Shown here piece by piece: positions 953-63,873 of a stretch of DNA of 64,000 nt. The position numbers and the translations under genes are program-made. Position 1 is the stretch's first letter. Every line of letters starts with the position of its first letter. Under the pieces are notes generated by a model that was not told the origin of the DNA, did no database searches, and was given only the letters and a program-made list of their open reading frames with translations. This DNA comes from Candidatus Vecturithrix granuli (lineage in GTDB: Bacteria > Moduliflexota > Moduliflexia > Moduliflexales > Moduliflexaceae). The DNA is taken from contig DF820466.1 in assembly GCA_000739535.1 (NCBI GenBank), forward strand, positions 146,573 through 210,572, read 5' to 3'.

Positions 953-1041
953 ACTACAAGGATTTCTCATAAGCAAGGATTTGGAGTGTCAAAGCTCTGC
1001 TTTGACACTCCAAATCCTTGCTTATGAGAAATCCCTGTAGT
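953..1041. repeat. Near-perfect 43-bp inverted repeat (ACTACAAGGATT family)
   Basis: Arms 953-995 and 999-1041 are complementary over 43 positions with a single mismatch, around a 3-nt loop (TCT). The outer ends read ACTACAAGGATTT and its complement, an end sequence shared with elements near 9.9-10.06 kb and 45.7 kb. It starts 1 nt after the AOR stop codon and ends 8 nt before the aldolase start, so it fills nearly the whole gap. Confidence 0.9.
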
Positions 1042-1042
1042 T

Positions 1043-3052
1043 CTACACAAAATCCTGTAATTCCAATTTATGAATGGTGTCCTGAGTCGGGATACCCTCC
1101 TCATCCCATCCCAGCGATTGATAATATTCCTGGTGCATTTGCTCAAAGGCGTCGCGATTGCAGACGGCAATACGCTCGCCGGTATCAACCGGGATTTCAA
1201 AAAAACGAGCAGGCAGCCAGTCATCATTTTTTGTAAAACCGCAGCGAATATTGAACAGGCGTTCCAGAGTCAGCGTGCGCCAGGCGGTTTTTTGGAGCAG
1301 CCCGGCGTTATAAGACAGACCGGTCACGGCATTCACCAGCAAAGCATATTCATCTAAGGTAATGGAAAATGAGCTGTAAACGCAAGCCCCGATAATATCA
1401 AGGACGGTATTGCTGAACGCGGCATTTTTCGAGATCAACGCGCTGCCTTCAATCCGATCTCCCGGCCATTCGGCGTACCCGGCGCAATAATCTTTCGCCG
1501 CTGTGTAACCGCCTTCCAGATGACAGGCCCCGCGATGACTCATTTCATAGCCCAAAGCTTGCGTAAAGGACGTGCGCGGATCGTATGCCGGCATCTCCTG
1601 TTTTTTGATCGTCATCGAGAATTCCGGATGTCCGTAACGTTCACAAAAACGATATGAACCTGAGGCCAGATATTTGCCAATCCCGCGCAAATTGCCGATC
1701 TCGTGTACCAGGGGAGCCAGAATGTCGGCATTGCCAAACGCCGGTTCGCCATACTGTTCAATAAAGGTTTTTGTATCCTCTAATAACTGTTTTTCTTGCG
1801 AAGAAGCCGCATTTCCCTGAGATTTCACGTATTCATACAGTTCAATAAATGCGGCAATCGTTCCCCCTAAGGAAATAGTGTCAACGCCATAGCGGTTGGC
1901 CCAGTAATTCGCCTGCACAATTACGGGTAAGTTATAGATGGATAAATTCGCTCCTAACAATGCCACGGTTTCAAATTCCGGGCCTTCACCTTCATCAATC
2001 AGATTGCCTTCCCCATCGATCAACTGGGTTTTGCGTTTACACAAAATCGGACAGCTGTAACAGGTGCCCTTTTTGACCTTGACCTTCGTTACTCCGGGTT
2101 TGGCTTTGGCCGCGTGTTGACGCAGGGCTTCTCCGGTGATTCGTTCAATATCTTCCGGTTTGTGATACGTATCTCGCATGTTATTATGAACAAGTTGTCC
2201 GTAATTATTCACCATGCCGCATAGACAGAGAGACCCCATTGAGGAGAGCGAGCCATAGTGCTCTTCTTTGCGGGAAAATTTGCCGACCTCAAGTTTGATT
2301 TTGGCCTTGAACGCGGCTCCGCTTTCGTTTTTGAAATCCAAACTTTCTTCATCAGCAACTTCTATCGTTATAGATCGATCCGGAACAACCGCAATCGCAT
2401 ACAAATTTTTCGCGCCAAACACAGCCCCGCCGCCGCCGCGTCCCAGGGAACGGCCTTTATCGTTGGTGATTGAGGCAAAATAGGCCCCTAATTTTCCAGC
2501 CTGTCCAATGGTAAGAACACGGGCACCTTGCGGGAGTTCGGCGGCTAACGTGTTTGTTGTATCTCTGGTATTGGCCTCTCGAAAGCGGTCGGCGGTGTGA
2601 AATTCGACTCCGGCGCTTGAAATCACCAGATAGATTGGGGTATCCGCTTTCCCGGTGATATACAGCACATCGTAGCCTGTTTTCTTGAGCGCGACGCCCC
2701 AGTAACCGCCGGAATCGCTGCTGCCAAGCCCTTCGGTGAGAGGAGACTTAAAATTCGCATGAAATCGTCCCGAAGTCGGCATTTTGGTGCCGGTCGTCGG
2801 TGCTGTGGCAATAATCAGCGGATTGTCCGGCGATAACGGATCGACCTCGGCAAACGCATTGCGATAGCGATCGTTTTGCTCAAGCCTTGAAAAATGCTGA
2901 AATAAAAATGCGATTCCCAGTCCTCGCCCGCCAAGAAAGCGTGCCGCGAGGTCAGGAGCCAACGGTTCAGCATGATACGTCTGCAAGTCAAGATCGACAA
3001 ATAATACCTTACCCATATATCCTTTGGGTAAGTGCATGGTATTTTCTTGCAT
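1043..3052 (-). CDS. Aldehyde:ferredoxin oxidoreductase (AOR family)
   Basis: A 669-residue protein of the tungsten/molybdenum bis-pterin AOR family, which oxidises aldehydes to carboxylates with ferredoxin. The N-terminal AOR domain (GYMGKVLFVDLDLQ, then FLGGRGLG at about 39-46) is clear. The [4Fe-4S] ligands appear as C331-x2-C334-x3-C338, with the fourth Cys at 557 in DIIGAC. A DPR...GYEMSHRG stretch at about 491-508 is the usual pterin-proximal region. It is somewhat longer than typical ~610-residue members, with small insertions near 53-75 and 235-265. The start is supported by AGAGGA about 8 nt upstream. Cytoplasmic. Substrate subfamily (AOR, FOR, GOR or benzoyl-CoA-reductase type) cannot be assigned from sequence alone. 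No pterin-synthesis gene adjoins it. Confidence 0.93.
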   Translation of the reverse strand: MQENTMHLPKGYMGKVLFVDLDLQTYHAEPLAPDLAARFLGGRGLGIAFLFQHFSRLEQNDRYRNAFAEVDPLSPDNPLIIATAPTTGTKMPTSGRFHANFKSPLTEGLGSSDSGGYWGVALKKTGYDVLYITGKADTPIYLVISSAGVEFHTADRFREANTRDTTNTLAAELPQGARVLTIGQAGKLGAYFASITNDKGRSLGRGGGGAVFGAKNLYAIAVVPDRSITIEVADEESLDFKNESGAAFKAKIKLEVGKFSRKEEHYGSLSSMGSLCLCGMVNNYGQLVHNNMRDTYHKPEDIERITGEALRQHAAKAKPGVTKVKVKKGTCYSCPILCKRKTQLIDGEGNLIDEGEGPEFETVALLGANLSIYNLPVIVQANYWANRYGVDTISLGGTIAAFIELYEYVKSQGNAASSQEKQLLEDTKTFIEQYGEPAFGNADILAPLVHEIGNLRGIGKYLASGSYRFCERYGHPEFSMTIKKQEMPAYDPRTSFTQALGYEMSHRGACHLEGGYTAAKDYCAGYAEWPGDRIEGSALISKNAAFSNTVLDIIGACVYSSFSITLDEYALLVNAVTGLSYNAGLLQKTAWRTLTLERLFNIRCGFTKNDDWLPARFFEIPVDTGERIAVCNRDAFEQMHQEYYQSLGWDEEGIPTQDTIHKLELQDFV

Positions 3053-9919: not shown

Positions 9920-10057
9920 AACTACAAGGATTGAGTATACATAAGGATTGGAAGTTTCTCAATTTGCATGTTAAAACTACAGGGATTTCTTGTAAGGAGG
10001 ATTGGTTTTCGGGATGTCCCCACTCTTTAATCCTTCGTAAATGCAATCCTTGTAGTT
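9920..10057. repeat. Compound ACTACAAGGATT-family repeat
   Basis: One half unit begins AACTACAAGGATTG at 9920. A second begins AACTACAGGGATTT at 9976 and pairs imperfectly over ~30 nt with a right arm ending in AATCCTTGTAGTT at 10057. Each unit has a second AGGATT about 10-12 nt inward, as in the 953-1041 element. Confidence 0.75.
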
Positions 10058-10092: not shown

Positions 10093-11463
10093 ATGGCACA
10101 CATGATCGCCAAAAACAGCATCCATACACTTACCATTACAGCACTGAATGATCAGGCTCAGGGATTAGGAATGCTGGATGGCATTCCGATCATCGTCGAA
10201 CAGGCGCTTCCTGGCGAACGAATCGAAGTCAAAATCATTAAAGTCACCCCAATCTATCTGGTCGGCAAATTATGTTCGGTGCTCGCGCCAGCGCAGGATC
10301 GGACACAGCCGTTCTGCCAGGTTTTTACCCGCTGCGGCGGCTGCCGTTTGCAGCACCTCAGTTATCCGGCGCAGTTGGATTTCAAAACCGATCTGGCCAG
10401 AGCACAGGTCAGTCAGGTGAAAGAGTTGCAAACCGTCCGCATTCATACAACGATTGGTATGGACAGCCCATTTCATTATCGTAATAAAGCCTTGTATCCG
10501 GTCGGACTGAGACAGGATAAGATTGTCATGGGATTTTACGCCACACATTCGCATGAAATCATCGAACATCCGGTCTGCGGCATTCAGGATGCACGAATTG
10601 ATCGCGTCATGGCTCACATCCGCCAATTTCTTGAATGCAGCCGGATCAGTATTTATGACGAAACCCAACACAGTGGATTGCTGCGACACGTGCTGGTCCG
10701 GATCGGGATGCGCAGCGGCGAAATCATGGTCGTCCTTGTTATAAACGGGCGCGATCTGCCTGACAAAGATCGGTTCATTTCTTCACTGACCCACACCATG
10801 CCTGAAATCAAAAGTCTGTCGCTCAATTGCAACCAGGAAAAGACCAACGTGATTTTAGGCATCGAGAACCGCGTCATTTTTGGTAAATACACGATCAGAG
10901 ATGAGTTGGGAGAATTTCAATTTGATATTTCCCCATCATCCTTTTATCAGATAAATCCTCGCCAAACCGAGATGTTATACCGCAAAGCGGTCGAATATGC
11001 TGCGTTAAGCGGAAAGGAAACCGTTGTCGATCTGTATTGCGGAATTGGAACGATCTCCTGTTTTTTGGCGTGTCAGGCTCAGCAGGTCTATGGCATAGAA
11101 GCAGTTGAGTCGGCGGTTCATGACGCCAGAAACAATGCGGCCCTGAATGCACTCAAGAATATTGAATTTCTCCAGGGAGAGGCCGAAGAAAGGTTGCGCG
11201 AACTCGCGGACCGAGACGTCCGGCCTGAAGTTGTCGTCGTTGATCCGCCGCGCAAAGGGTGTGAACAGAGTGTACTCGACGCCATTATCGCCATGCAGCC
11301 GCAGCGCATGGTGTATGTCTCCTGCGCGCCTAAAACCCTGGTACGCGATCTGGGCTATTTAGCCCGAAATGGAATGCAACCCCTTGAAATTCAGCCTATT
11401 GATCTGTTTCCGCACACCACGCACGTGGAATGCGTCACACGAATCGAACGAAAAGATCGCTGA
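10093..11463 (+). CDS. rlmD: 23S rRNA (uracil-5-)-methyltransferase RlmD/RumA type
   Basis: A 456-residue TrmA/RumA-family enzyme that methylates C5 of uridine in 23S rRNA (U1939 in E. coli). An N-terminal TRAM domain (about 8-60) precedes the iron-sulfur ligands C75, C81, C84 and C162, spaced as in RumA. The SAM-binding loop is VVDLYCGIGTIS at about 312-323, followed by VVDPPRKGCE. The nucleophilic Cys is C411 in VYVSCAPKTL. Length matches the family. No clear Shine-Dalgarno is seen before the ATG; the next Met (residue 4) is an equal candidate. It stands alone, divergent from the AAA+ cluster. A RlmCD-type or tRNA m5U54 (TrmFO-like) role cannot be fully excluded. Confidence 0.9.
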   Translation: MAHMIAKNSIHTLTITALNDQAQGLGMLDGIPIIVEQALPGERIEVKIIKVTPIYLVGKLCSVLAPAQDRTQPFCQVFTRCGGCRLQHLSYPAQLDFKTDLARAQVSQVKELQTVRIHTTIGMDSPFHYRNKALYPVGLRQDKIVMGFYATHSHEIIEHPVCGIQDARIDRVMAHIRQFLECSRISIYDETQHSGLLRHVLVRIGMRSGEIMVVLVINGRDLPDKDRFISSLTHTMPEIKSLSLNCNQEKTNVILGIENRVIFGKYTIRDELGEFQFDISPSSFYQINPRQTEMLYRKAVEYAALSGKETVVDLYCGIGTISCFLACQAQQVYGIEAVESAVHDARNNAALNALKNIEFLQGEAEERLRELADRDVRPEVVVVDPPRKGCEQSVLDAIIAMQPQRMVYVSCAPKTLVRDLGYLARNGMQPLEIQPIDLFPHTTHVECVTRIERKDR

Positions 11464-38801: not shown

Positions 38802-38944
38802 CGGTGCCTGACTGATGTTGATAAATTTTTTGCGGAGAATTGACTTTTGCTGGTTAGATCGTAAGATGACAAATGTAGAATATGAAAACTCATTCAAAGG
38901 AATTCACATGAATTGGCGCTCACCCGACGCAATGAAAATATGAT

Positions 38945-39006
38945 GTAGTGCGAAACTCGAGTTTCGCGGTTGTCAACGGATGCGCGAAACTGGAGTTTCG
39001 CGCTAC
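38945..39006. repeat. REPIN-like element, GCGAAACT type, copy 1
   Basis: GTAG opens the element and CTAC (39003-39006) closes it. Two palindromes of the GCGAAACT-NN-AGTTTCGC kind are separated by GTTGTCAACGGAT. Confidence 0.88.
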
Positions 39007-39059
39007 ATTTTCAAAGGAGCTCTTCATGTGCTTTGGCAAACACACCACCGACACATGAA

Positions 39060-39182
39060 AATTTGGTAATGGTTAAATGGTAAGTGATGCGTTCCCTGAG
39101 CGAAGTCGAAGGGAACAGTGAGCGGCTCGTTTCGACTTCGCTCAACGAGCGGGCATCACTTACTATTTAACCACTACCAAAA
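39060..39182. repeat. Palindromic element with GAGCGAAGTCGAA core
   Basis: Arms of about 55 nt pair with few mismatches. The outer ~30 nt (from AATTTGGTAATGG through TAAGTGATGC) are private to this copy, while the inner GAGCGAAGTCGAA core matches the 13500-13592 element. Confidence 0.88.
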
Positions 39183-39206
39183 TTCTCTGTTTGTGGGAGA
39201 TGGGAT

Positions 39207-39267
39207 GTAGCGCGAAACTCCAGTTTCGCGGCTGTCAACGGATGCGCGAAACGGAGTTTCGCGCTAC
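39207..39267. repeat. REPIN-like element, GCGAAACT type, copy 2
   Basis: GTAG (39207-39210) and CTAC (39264-39267) bound two CGCGAAA...TTTCGCG palindromes with the spacer GCTGTCAACGGAT, almost identical to copy 1. It ends 7 nt before the AAAGGAG of the next gene. Confidence 0.9.
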
Positions 39268-39286
39268 GTTTTCAAAGGAGAACGCT

Positions 39287-39685
39287 ATGGCAGTAAAAGG
39301 GGCCGGAGGCACAAACGGCGGCATCGGGCAGTTTTTTATCGGGTTAATCATGATTATTGCCGGAGGGTATCTTTTCCTCAACGCGATTCATATCAGGCAT
39401 GAGTTTCATTTAGGATACCGGTTATATTCCTTTGGCACATTCAATCTAACGAGTGGAATGGTTTTGATCCCGTTTATTTTCGGCATTGGTTTGATATTTT
39501 ACAATTATAAGAGCATTCTGGGGTGGTTGCTGACTGGGGCATCTCTTATCATGCTGGGGTTTGGGATTATTTCTTCCCTGCAATTTCAATTGCAAGATAT
39601 GTCGGCCTTTGAACTCTTGACCATTCTCGTATTACTGGTTGGAGGCATCGGCTTATTCCTTAGTTCGTTTCGCACGTATGATTAA
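39287..39685 (+). CDS. Small integral membrane protein, unknown
   Basis: A 132-residue protein with four hydrophobic segments: about 16-33 (FFIGLIMIIAGGYLFLNA), 54-71 (GMVLIPFIFGIGLIFYNY), 75-94 and 107-126 (LTILVLLVGGIGLFLSS). The N-terminus is Gly-rich (MAVKGAGGTNGGIG). I start it at ATG 39287 with AAAGGAG at 39274-39280. A longer ORF from 39191 translates the REPIN. I do not recognise the family. It precedes an MBL-fold hydrolase with a 17-nt gap. Confidence 0.65.
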   Translation: MAVKGAGGTNGGIGQFFIGLIMIIAGGYLFLNAIHIRHEFHLGYRLYSFGTFNLTSGMVLIPFIFGIGLIFYNYKSILGWLLTGASLIMLGFGIISSLQFQLQDMSAFELLTILVLLVGGIGLFLSSFRTYD

Positions 39686-42648: not shown

Positions 42649-43043
42649 AATCTCTTCTCTCCTTGCCATAAAAATGATAAGCTTGATTCCTATGAACATA
42701 TCCTAATATCAGATTCCAAAAGTCAAGCGAAATCTCAAACCCTAGAGGATTTCTCAACCTTGTCCGATTATTTCTCTAAAACAAACAGATTCAGTTCTCT
42801 TTTCTCTTGACAAACTCATTTCGCAACCAACTTGTTTAATAGACATGATCGAAAATAGAACACTGATGGGACTGATTGAACTGATCTCCATTGATTTTTC
42901 GAGAAGAATGGCGTGTACTCCATGCTGGTTCTCATGATCATAAACCGTGTCCTGAATTCATTCTCATCTCAGTAAGCATCGGCCCAATCAGTCCCCTCAG
43001 TGTTCTATTTAAGAATTTTTTTATCGGTAGAAGGAGGAATTTC
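42649..43043. other. Divergent intergenic region with long-loop inverted repeat
   Basis: About 395 nt between the chemoreceptor and the DUF697/SHOCT gene. It contains the 22-nt inverted repeat at 42857-43006. Apart from that I see no gene, RNA or promoter with both hexamers. Confidence 0.7.
42857..43006. repeat. 22-nt inverted repeat with 106-nt loop
   Basis: The arm 42857-42878 (AGAACACTGATGGGACTGAT...) matches the complement of 42985-43006 with one mismatch in 22. The long loop shows no ORF. Confidence 0.75.
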
Positions 43044-45277: not shown

Positions 45278-45661
45278 TCAGCATCCTTCCTCGATGGTTT
45301 CCAGATTACGGGTGGTGATCACATCTATTCCGGTTCCGGCAAAATTTCTGATGACTGGTGTTCCAATCTGCAAAGGAGCTTCCAATTGTAAGCGATAAAT
45401 AGCGTTGAGCAAGGCGTTGATATGTTTGATTGGAATCGGCTCACTGGTGCGCACCGGAATGCGTTTCATCACCCCATGTTCGATGGAGGCGGTAGCGGTC
45501 ACCATACGGCGCGGATCATAATATTCCTGTCGTGCATACTCAATGCCGCGCTTACACGAATGATGATACACCGCTTTGATGTCGCCGTTTTCAATTTCCA
45601 ATTCCAGGCGACATCCTAACGGACAGGTAATACAGACCATTTCTTTGAGTTCTACTGCCAT
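45278..45661 (-). CDS. DUF1667 iron-sulfur-type protein of glycerol operon
   Basis: A 127-residue DUF1667 protein. The N-terminal CITCPLGCRLEL and the later HHSCKRGIEYA supply four conserved cysteines that probably hold an Fe-S cluster. The rest (RMVTATASIEHG..., RIPVRTSEPIPI) is typical of the family. DUF1667 genes regularly follow glpA-like and FAD/NAD oxidoreductase genes, as here, and the product is thought to be an electron-transfer partner of that glycerol-3-phosphate oxidation complex. A 150-nt gap with a hairpin repeat separates it from the oxidoreductase gene. GGAGAAG precedes the start. Confidence 0.88.
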   Translation of the reverse strand: MAVELKEMVCITCPLGCRLELEIENGDIKAVYHHSCKRGIEYARQEYYDPRRMVTATASIEHGVMKRIPVRTSEPIPIKHINALLNAIYRLQLEAPLQIGTPVIRNFAGTGIDVITTRNLETIEEGC

Positions 45662-45681
45662 TGTGTAAAGCTTCTCCTGGG

Positions 45682-45785
45682 AAACTACTAGGATTTCGTG
45701 TAGGAAGGATTCCTGACAACGAATTGGTTGGCGTGAACCGAACCCTGCCTCTAAGAATCCTTCCTACACAAAATCCTTGTAGTTT
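45682..45785. repeat. ACTACAAGGATT-family hairpin inside glycerol operon
   Basis: Arms beginning AAACTACTAGGATTT (45682) and ending AAATCCTTGTAGTTT (45785) pair over ~31 nt with two mismatches. An inner loop of ~40 nt contains a smaller TTGGTT/AACCGAA dyad. The second inward AGGATT is conserved. Confidence 0.85.
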
Positions 45786-45812
45786 CATTGTGTCGGTTTT
45801 TATCACGATTTT

Positions 45813-58022: not shown

Positions 58023-58090
58023 TAAAGGAATTTCCATTGCCTGTGTACAGCAATTCAGAAATTCTTTGTACACCCAATCCTTGTAATTGC
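58022..58090. repeat. Degenerate ACTACAAGGATT-family end
   Basis: AATCCTTGTAATT (58076-58088) matches the right end of the family. GTGTACA (58043-58049) and TGTACAC (58067-58073) form a small dyad inward. The left end is too diverged to place. It abuts the acyltransferase ATG at 58093. Confidence 0.5.
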
Positions 58091-63717: not shown

Positions 63718-63740
63718 CAAAATTTCAAAGAACTAAACTA

Positions 63741-63843
63741 AGAAGAAGTTTCAAAGGACTACAGCGACTATAATGACTAAAGTTTGAGGAGGGATCTTTA
63801 ACTTGAGTCACTTGAGTCATTTTAGTCCTTTGAAACTTCTTCT
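63741..63843. repeat. 44-nt inverted repeat with GACT microrepeats
   Basis: The left arm 63741-63784 and right arm 63800-63843 pair at 37 of 44 positions around a 15-nt loop. The outer 21 nt (AGAAGAAGTTTCAAAGGACT...) are perfect. Inner parts consist of degenerate GACTNNA units. It lies between mutB and the next gene. Confidence 0.88.
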
Positions 63844-63873
63844 CACTTTAGCCACTTAACCAACCTTGATAAT

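Follow-up and report, generated by a model that had tools for sequence, protein, structure and literature searches.

A high-copy mosaic hairpin repeat family beside Shine-Dalgarno sequences in Candidatus Vecturithrix granuli

REP sequences are defined by a GT(A/G)G motif located 0-2 nt 5' of a 7-20-bp stem with a short loop (PMC6006769, PMC3686654). Published REPs occur near the 3' ends of genes and lie at varying distances from downstream genes (PMC3733652). A second class of short repeats, the MITEs, has been reported in Beggiatoaceae genomes; the hupL MITE, which disrupts its gene, shows a 10-bp direct repeat and a 19-bp inverted repeat (PMC4853749). Gene exchange has also been reported among filamentous gliding bacteria, including KSB3, Thiotrichales, and Desulfonema (PMC6390638). 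The genome studied here is that of UASB270, i.e., Candidatus Vecturithrix granuli, a filamentous sludge bacterium of the candidate phylum KSB3/Modulibacteria (PMC4312070). We analyzed a 64,000-nucleotide stretch of this genome (the window) and searched all 21 of its scaffolds (8,384,694 bp; 8.38 Mb) for related repeats. No description of the family was found in the literature searched, with most subscription literature outside that search, and searching for its 12-nt end motif returned unrelated papers only.

Window elements and the family they represent

A first-pass annotation of the window described dispersed hairpins sharing ACTAC(A/T)AGGATT as their outer ends, with a second AGGATT further inward. 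These ends were recovered at 953/1041, 9921/10056, and 45684/45783, as was a degenerate single end on the minus strand, and the second AGGATT lies 10-11 nt inward in each (Table 1). The stretch at 9920-10057 had been read as one hairpin with matched arms; it is instead composite, with a solo C-type end joined to an 81-nt hairpin, given that 10 of 30 arm positions differ. Both the 89-nt palindrome and the type A hairpin fold far better than shuffled sequence. The stop codon of a minus-strand gene (1043-3052) abuts the palindrome, an rlmD-like gene (10102-11463) lies downstream of the 81-nt hairpin, and the type A copy reads GTAGT-TTCCC-AGGAG-N12-ATG into the gene at 45278-45661. More hairpin families are present in the window at 42853-43010 and 63733-63851 (AACACTGATGGGACTGATT type, GTTTCAAAGGACTACAG type), and a AACACTGATGGGACTGATT-type hairpin is also found between two facing C-type ends at C18:90174-90440.

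Table 1. Coordinates of repeat features in the window
Feature	Position	Strand	Details
Near-perfect palindrome, 89 nt	953..1041	.	43-nt arms, 1 mismatch, 3-nt loop; z -18.3; E/B-type arms (ACTACAAGGATTTCTCATAAGCAAGGATT) enclose inner hairpin GTGTCAAAGC-TCT-GCTTTGACAC
C-type solo end (ACTACAAGGATTGAGTATACATAAGGATT)	9921..9975	+	
Hairpin, 81 nt, D-like length	9976..10056	.	arms poorly matched; adjoins solo end 9921..9975
Distal linker ATGAATTGGCGCTCACCCG	38908..38926	+	preceded by AGGAA-N5; heads REP-hairpin array
REP doublet GTAGTGCGAAACTCGAGTTTCGCG...GCGCGAAACTGGAGTTTCGCGCTACAT	38942..39008	.	unrelated to the family; behind linker 38908..38926
Shine-Dalgarno AGGAG of minus-strand gene 45278-45661	45674..45678	-	5 nt beyond type A hairpin end
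Type A element, 100 nt	45684..45783	.	family core conserved, 29-nt arms; z -8.7
Distal-linker remnant, truncated, TTCATTGTGTCGG	45784..45796	+	
Degenerate C-type solo end ATTACAAGGATTGGGTGTACAAAGAATT	58076..58087	-	no hairpin; z 0.02

Genome-wide, the 12-mer ACTACNAGGATT occurs in 164 copies and its reversed-pattern control in none, which sets aside the chance frequency that the annotation had named as grounds for doubt. The pattern ACTACARGGATTN{8,13}AGGATT gave 125 matches, again with none for the reversed pattern. Pair anatomy, gene placement, and the Shine-Dalgarno (SD) statistics below derive from 2.33 of the 8.38 Mb, in stretches picked partly because they contain matches. This sample holds 70 inward-facing pairs and 43 solo ends. 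Most pairs group by length and sequence into subfamilies A (~101 nt, n = 27, with 99- and 100-nt variants), B (60-61 nt, n = 12), C (82-84 nt, n = 8), and D (78-81 nt, n = 7); odd pairs beyond these include near-perfect palindromes of 63, 64, 71, and 89 nt, and E and F types were also recognized. The solo E-type copies are in fact whole elements whose second end has diverged, with TAAGTAACTACAAGG on one side and ATTATTTGTAATCACTTA on the opposite one. Across several subfamilies, an end module, ACTACAAGGATT-N4-TA-N3-AAGGATT, recurs as inverted pairs, solo ends, and tandem units.

The annotation had also proposed a mobile unit with fixed ends. Its outline agrees with what we found, i.e., more than 100 dispersed copies, modular units, arrays, and occurrence in unrelated lineages, whereas ACTAC is not the outer boundary: A and B units continue into GAA/TTC and a linker, and E elements end in the terminal repeat TAAGTAACTACAAGG/...ATTTGTAATCACTTA. 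The family very probably constitutes a high-copy, non-autonomous, mobile, hairpin-forming mosaic repeat of the REP/BIME/MITE class.

A further proposal was that each copy has private arms, with substitutions matched on both. Arms of the 70 pairs differ on average at 3.53 of 28 nt, compared to 7.46 when arms are permuted among copies, and none of 2000 permutations was as low; arm complementarity therefore does extend beyond the window loci. Within subfamilies, however, mismatches were close to the permuted values (A, 1.81 vs 1.79; C, 4.13 vs 3.80; D, 4.40 vs 4.36). Since arms match between subfamilies and not within A, C, and D, the supposedly private arms reflect subfamily identity. A group sharing a CATA arm motif, in which B and E types are mixed, showed 4.87 mismatches vs 6.09 permuted (15 of 2000 as low), and this small within-copy excess may stem from the mixed subfamilies or from true palindrome-making events. 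The perfect palindromes are real exceptions to subfamily-only arm matching.

A larger unit beside Shine-Dalgarno sequences

The A and B hairpins form part of a larger unit. On one side, the hairpin ends 5 nt before an AGGAG SD sequence belonging to the gene or unit that follows; on the other, it continues into a linker that bears, at its far end, a separate AGGAG-N5-ATG and then a small hairpin. The full linker is TTCATNNYGCCGGGTGAGCnnnnGCTCATGNNAACTCCT or, read towards the hairpin, AGGAG-NTRTC-ATGAGCnnnnGCTCACCCG-NCNNN-ATGAA. Its AGGAGNNNNCATGAGCNNNNGCTCACCCG segment has 130 genome copies at no more than two mismatches and the reversed-pattern control has none. Payload orientation inside the unit is mostly fixed for A and B, and several copies have no distal linker or no linker AGGAG. 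The linker loops are variable, often TTCG, GCAA, GTAA, GTAG, or TGAC, several of which are stable RNA tetraloop sequences. The reading frame that begins at the linker ATG stays open through many copies, and a conserved peptide encoded by the A core was considered; this candidate was rejected, as the frame is lost in the 99- and 100-nt variants and loops such as TGAC introduce in-frame stops.

The same linker is common to A, B, and unrelated REP payloads, e.g., GTAGCGCGAAACTCCAGTTTCGCG doublets and CCGGACAAGG hairpins. Because one linker precedes quite different hairpins, units stack into arrays. Comparison of the arrays at C16:321k and C18:347k shows a whole B unit in one that is missing in the other, with boundaries CTCC/GTCC, a difference that unequal recombination between units could also produce. 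The window itself contains one such array, which occupies about 38908-39270 of the stretch 38897-39295; it consists of a linker and a REP doublet, then a linker of another type (ATGTGCTTTGGCAAACACACC), a GGTAATGGTTAAATGG element, and a further REP doublet. This array ends at the AAAGGAG-AACGCT-ATG of a gene, so that the SD-adjacent arrangement holds for unrelated REP hairpins too. Another element, with inverted ends TTTGGTAATGGTTAAATGG, occupies 39059-39184, and a related copy in the same genome (C11:92319-92541) sits within a type A hairpin; the direct repeat GGATTTCGTGTA on both sides of this copy suggests a target duplication of ~12 bp.

All 70 paired copies are intergenic, in sequence of which ~80% is covered by genes as called by a simple codon-usage script, and many lie between a stop codon and an SD sequence in likely operons. 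The first GGAG outward of the hairpin is found at an offset of exactly 6 nt on 33 of 140 sides, compared to 0.07 expected from random intergenic flanks. Moreover, 21 of the 70 copies have an outward-facing start codon 13-24 nt beyond their end, as do 0.66% of random intergenic points, and the usual layout is GTAGT-TTCNN-AGGAG-N4..13-ATG. GGAG is present in the SD region of 16 of the 21 genes that follow such copies, compared to 692 of 1792 genes overall.

Occurrence in other genomes

The end module was found in at least 106 loci of named genomes, mostly of Candidatus Parabeggiatoa, Thiomargarita, and a Thiotrichaceae bacterium, with few in Desulfobacterales. Counts of ACTACAAGGATTN{9,12}AAGGATT reached 492, 276, 150, 76, 52, and 50 in six Beggiatoaceae genomes (Parabeggiatoa and one Thiomargarita), compared to 102 in Vecturithrix granuli and 4 and 1 in two others; the control gave zero throughout. 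Neither the end module nor a closely similar linker pattern was present in 39 kin genomes of Vecturithrix granuli, including, for the module, one of the same family and two of the same order. A scan of viral contigs gave eight matches, none with the anatomy of the element.

Copies in Beggiatoaceae are mostly flanked by ATAACTAC...GTAGTTAT and also occur as tandem 29-bp arrays; neither the SD placement nor the linker was seen among them. As GGAG offsets are scattered in Beggiatoaceae, the SD-adjacent placement is a trait of the A, B, and D subfamilies in Vecturithrix granuli and not of the end module. Two loci of Candidatus Parabeggiatoa sp. nov. 1 (L152 and L168) carry end-module tandem arrays with periods of 29 bp and 59 bp. 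At an orthologous locus in two Thiotrichales genomes (L166 and L184), the repeat directly follows the stop codon in both, and one of them has an extra small gene resembling a Phd/YefM-type antitoxin. The end module has probably passed by horizontal transfer among filamentous bacteria that belong to different phyla. Its hundreds of copies in giant sulfur bacteria, members of another phylum, would constitute a non-coding addition to the reported gene exchange.

Mode of insertion and relation to known systems

The annotation had proposed looking for target-site duplications and empty orthologous sites, and neither search was productive. Flanking direct repeats of at least 4 nt showed no excess at the hairpin boundaries of 60 copies (extensions of 0-11, lengths of 4-12). 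Of 15 units, 1 has the same two nucleotides in front of its proximal and its distal AGGAG, where 4.3 would be expected; AGGAG and its neighbors are hence unlikely to be a target duplication. No clean empty site was found in Beggiatoaceae, where flanks are repeats themselves or too rearranged, or in the kin of Vecturithrix granuli, which are too divergent.

Twelve Y1_Tnp matches (genes or fragments) were identified in the genome, including an IS200-type protein at C18:601447. None of the Y1 genes considered, i.e., 8 of the 12 own-genome matches and 29 matches in other genomes including Beggiatoaceae, is clearly flanked by ACTACAAGGATT ends. A degenerate end copy (ACGACACGGATTTTCCATCAGCAACGGATT) precedes the Y1 domain match at C18:601447 by ~30 nt, although this could be a chance occurrence. 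Separately, a fragment of an IS200-type transposase gene at C16:67067-67261 (L042) ends exactly at a ACTACAAGGATTTCTCA end (C16:67249). These were the two cases of adjacency among the Y1 genes considered in this genome and eight foreign ones. When ORFs near the ends were clustered, no transposase gene family recurred beside them at the 106 foreign loci among the matches listed. The lack of a target duplication, together with the subterminal hairpins, suggests single-strand transposition by a Y1/HUH enzyme, and we regard movement of the repeat by such an enzyme as a tentative assignment, a little under even odds.

We consider it somewhat more likely than not that insertion is specific for SD-adjacent sites, as opposed to a pattern produced by selection alone or by a ribosome-binding site that the unit carries. 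Insertion would take place beside CTCCT, in the mRNA-complementary strand, leaving the native SD sequence of the gene in place. The far end of the unit would bring a new CTCCT next to a small hairpin, which would serve as the next landing site, and transposition would be single-stranded and catalyzed in trans by a Y1/HUH enzyme (IS200/IS605 or RAYT-like). Insertion beside CTCCT would account for the fixed offset, the gene-specific sequence past the proximal AGGAG, the near-constant distal spacer, the arrays, and the missing duplication; with a new CTCCT at the far end, further units could stack into head-to-tail arrays and mix with other REP hairpins. Overall, we lean slightly towards a mosaic hairpin repeat, non-autonomous and perhaps moved by a Y1/HUH transposase, for which the insertion site lies directly upstream of SD sequences. 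The most specific version, in which an HUH single-strand repeat targets the SD complement and its mock SD-ATG makes a new target, such that unrelated hairpins line up before genes, is possible, yet we hold it with considerable reserve. A family set with single-nucleotide regularity beside ribosome-binding sites would be a natural case of mobile DNA that recognizes the start signal of translation as its landing site, and it would directly affect how the downstream genes are translated.

The strongest alternative, though we think it unlikely, is that the unit carries an SD sequence which replaces the ribosome-binding site of the gene; units would insert anywhere just upstream of a start codon and the survivors would be those with correct spacing. 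The constant AGGAG offset from the hairpin on 33 sides, combined with a variable AGGAG-to-ATG spacing, is in keeping with this explanation, and an element-borne ribosome-binding site predicts much the same proximal pattern. However, past the proximal AGGAG both the sequence and its length differ from gene to gene, whereas the spacer at the distal AGGAG is nearly constant. Furthermore, CC as the two nucleotides before the proximal AGGAG is restricted to gene-proximal sites, a pattern suggestive of native sequence.

It is less likely still that the copies are classic MITEs, derived by internal deletion from a DDE insertion sequence. The transposase of that insertion sequence would recognize 28-bp terminal repeats containing two AAGGATT boxes and duplicate its target. 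The symmetric terminal repeats with their doubled internal box fit this model, and the divergent E-type terminal repeats TAAGTAACTAC/GTAATCACTTA could conceal a TA duplication. The MITE model is opposed by the direct-repeat analysis, which gave no excess at any tested offset, and by the failure of any transposase family to recur beside the ends at the 106 foreign loci. A fixed distance from SD sequences is also unusual for DDE-type MITEs.

A host-selected RNA device, i.e., a 5'-UTR hairpin or intercistronic stabilizer that spread by duplication rather than by mobility and sits near SD sequences because of its function, appears improbable. The exclusively intergenic location of the pairs, the stability of the RNA hairpins, and the many copies between stop codons and SD sequences in likely operons would suit such a device. 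Yet an Rfam 15 scan of the window gave no match at gathering score, the A arms lack pairing-preserving covariation, one linker serves arrays of unrelated hairpins, and other lineages carry the end module with no SD placement. The weakest alternative is hairpin-templated repair (quasi-palindrome correction) that homogenizes the arms of each copy, as the annotation had suggested; the perfect and near-perfect palindromes and the type A copy described next are in its favor, but we judge it highly improbable, given that within A, C, and D the arms of one copy are no more similar than those of different copies. In the type A copy at C14:274149-274247, the outer flanks mirror one another (GGTACATCTGAA / TTCAGATGTACC) for ~11 nt past the hairpin, which could result from a single template-switch event.

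Reading the family as a mobile mosaic repeat places it among several described systems. The TAACTGA direct repeats of Beggiatoaceae, Cyanobacteria, and Bacteroidetes are likewise intergenic, lie a few nucleotides before start codons, occur in distant bacteria, and are suspected to spread horizontally (PMC4679880). Those repeats, in contrast, are tandem heptamers of another motif without hairpin arms, and canonical ribosome-binding sites are rare beside them (PMC4679880). MITEs, including those of Candidatus Thiomargarita nelsonii, are also short, non-coding, high-copy inverted-repeat elements (PMC4853749). The present family shares with DDE-type MITEs terminal inverted repeats without a transposase gene; unlike the hupL MITE, none of its 70 paired copies lies within a gene and no duplication was detected. 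TIRYT elements likewise comprise inverted-repeat families and are tied to tyrosine transposases rather than GTAG REPs (PMC3733652), but several TIRYT repeats carry GGGGWSAS, which is absent from the ends described here, and none of the Y1 genes considered is clearly flanked by these ends. Non-autonomous IS200/IS605-type elements are characterized by subterminal hairpins, no target duplication, and fixed cleavage tetranucleotides at the flank and terminus. In the present family, hairpins are present, no duplication was found, and CTCCT stands both at the flank and at the carried unit end; its mode of action may resemble that of such derivatives and of REP/BIME mosaics.

The closest resemblance is to REP/BIME/REPIN systems with RAYT (TnpA-REP) enzymes, which also comprise short, high-copy, intergenic palindromes in inverted doublets and mosaics, with several families per genome and Y1/HUH genes present (PMC3733652, PMC6006769, PMC8266576). 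The intergenic location of every pair and the 164 motif copies conform to this class. As the annotation recognized, the layout is not that of a standard REP: the ends read ACTAC...GTAGT, with GTAG beyond the stem on its 3' outer side rather than 5' of it as the definitions demand (PMC6006769, PMC3686654). An inner GTAG does precede a 9-bp stem in type A, but with a loop of ~43 nt, and B, C, and E have no inner GTAG. No cognate RAYT gene flanked by the repeat was found among the Y1 matches examined. What sets the family apart from published REPs is the fixed distance of its hairpins, 5 nt, from the SD sequence.
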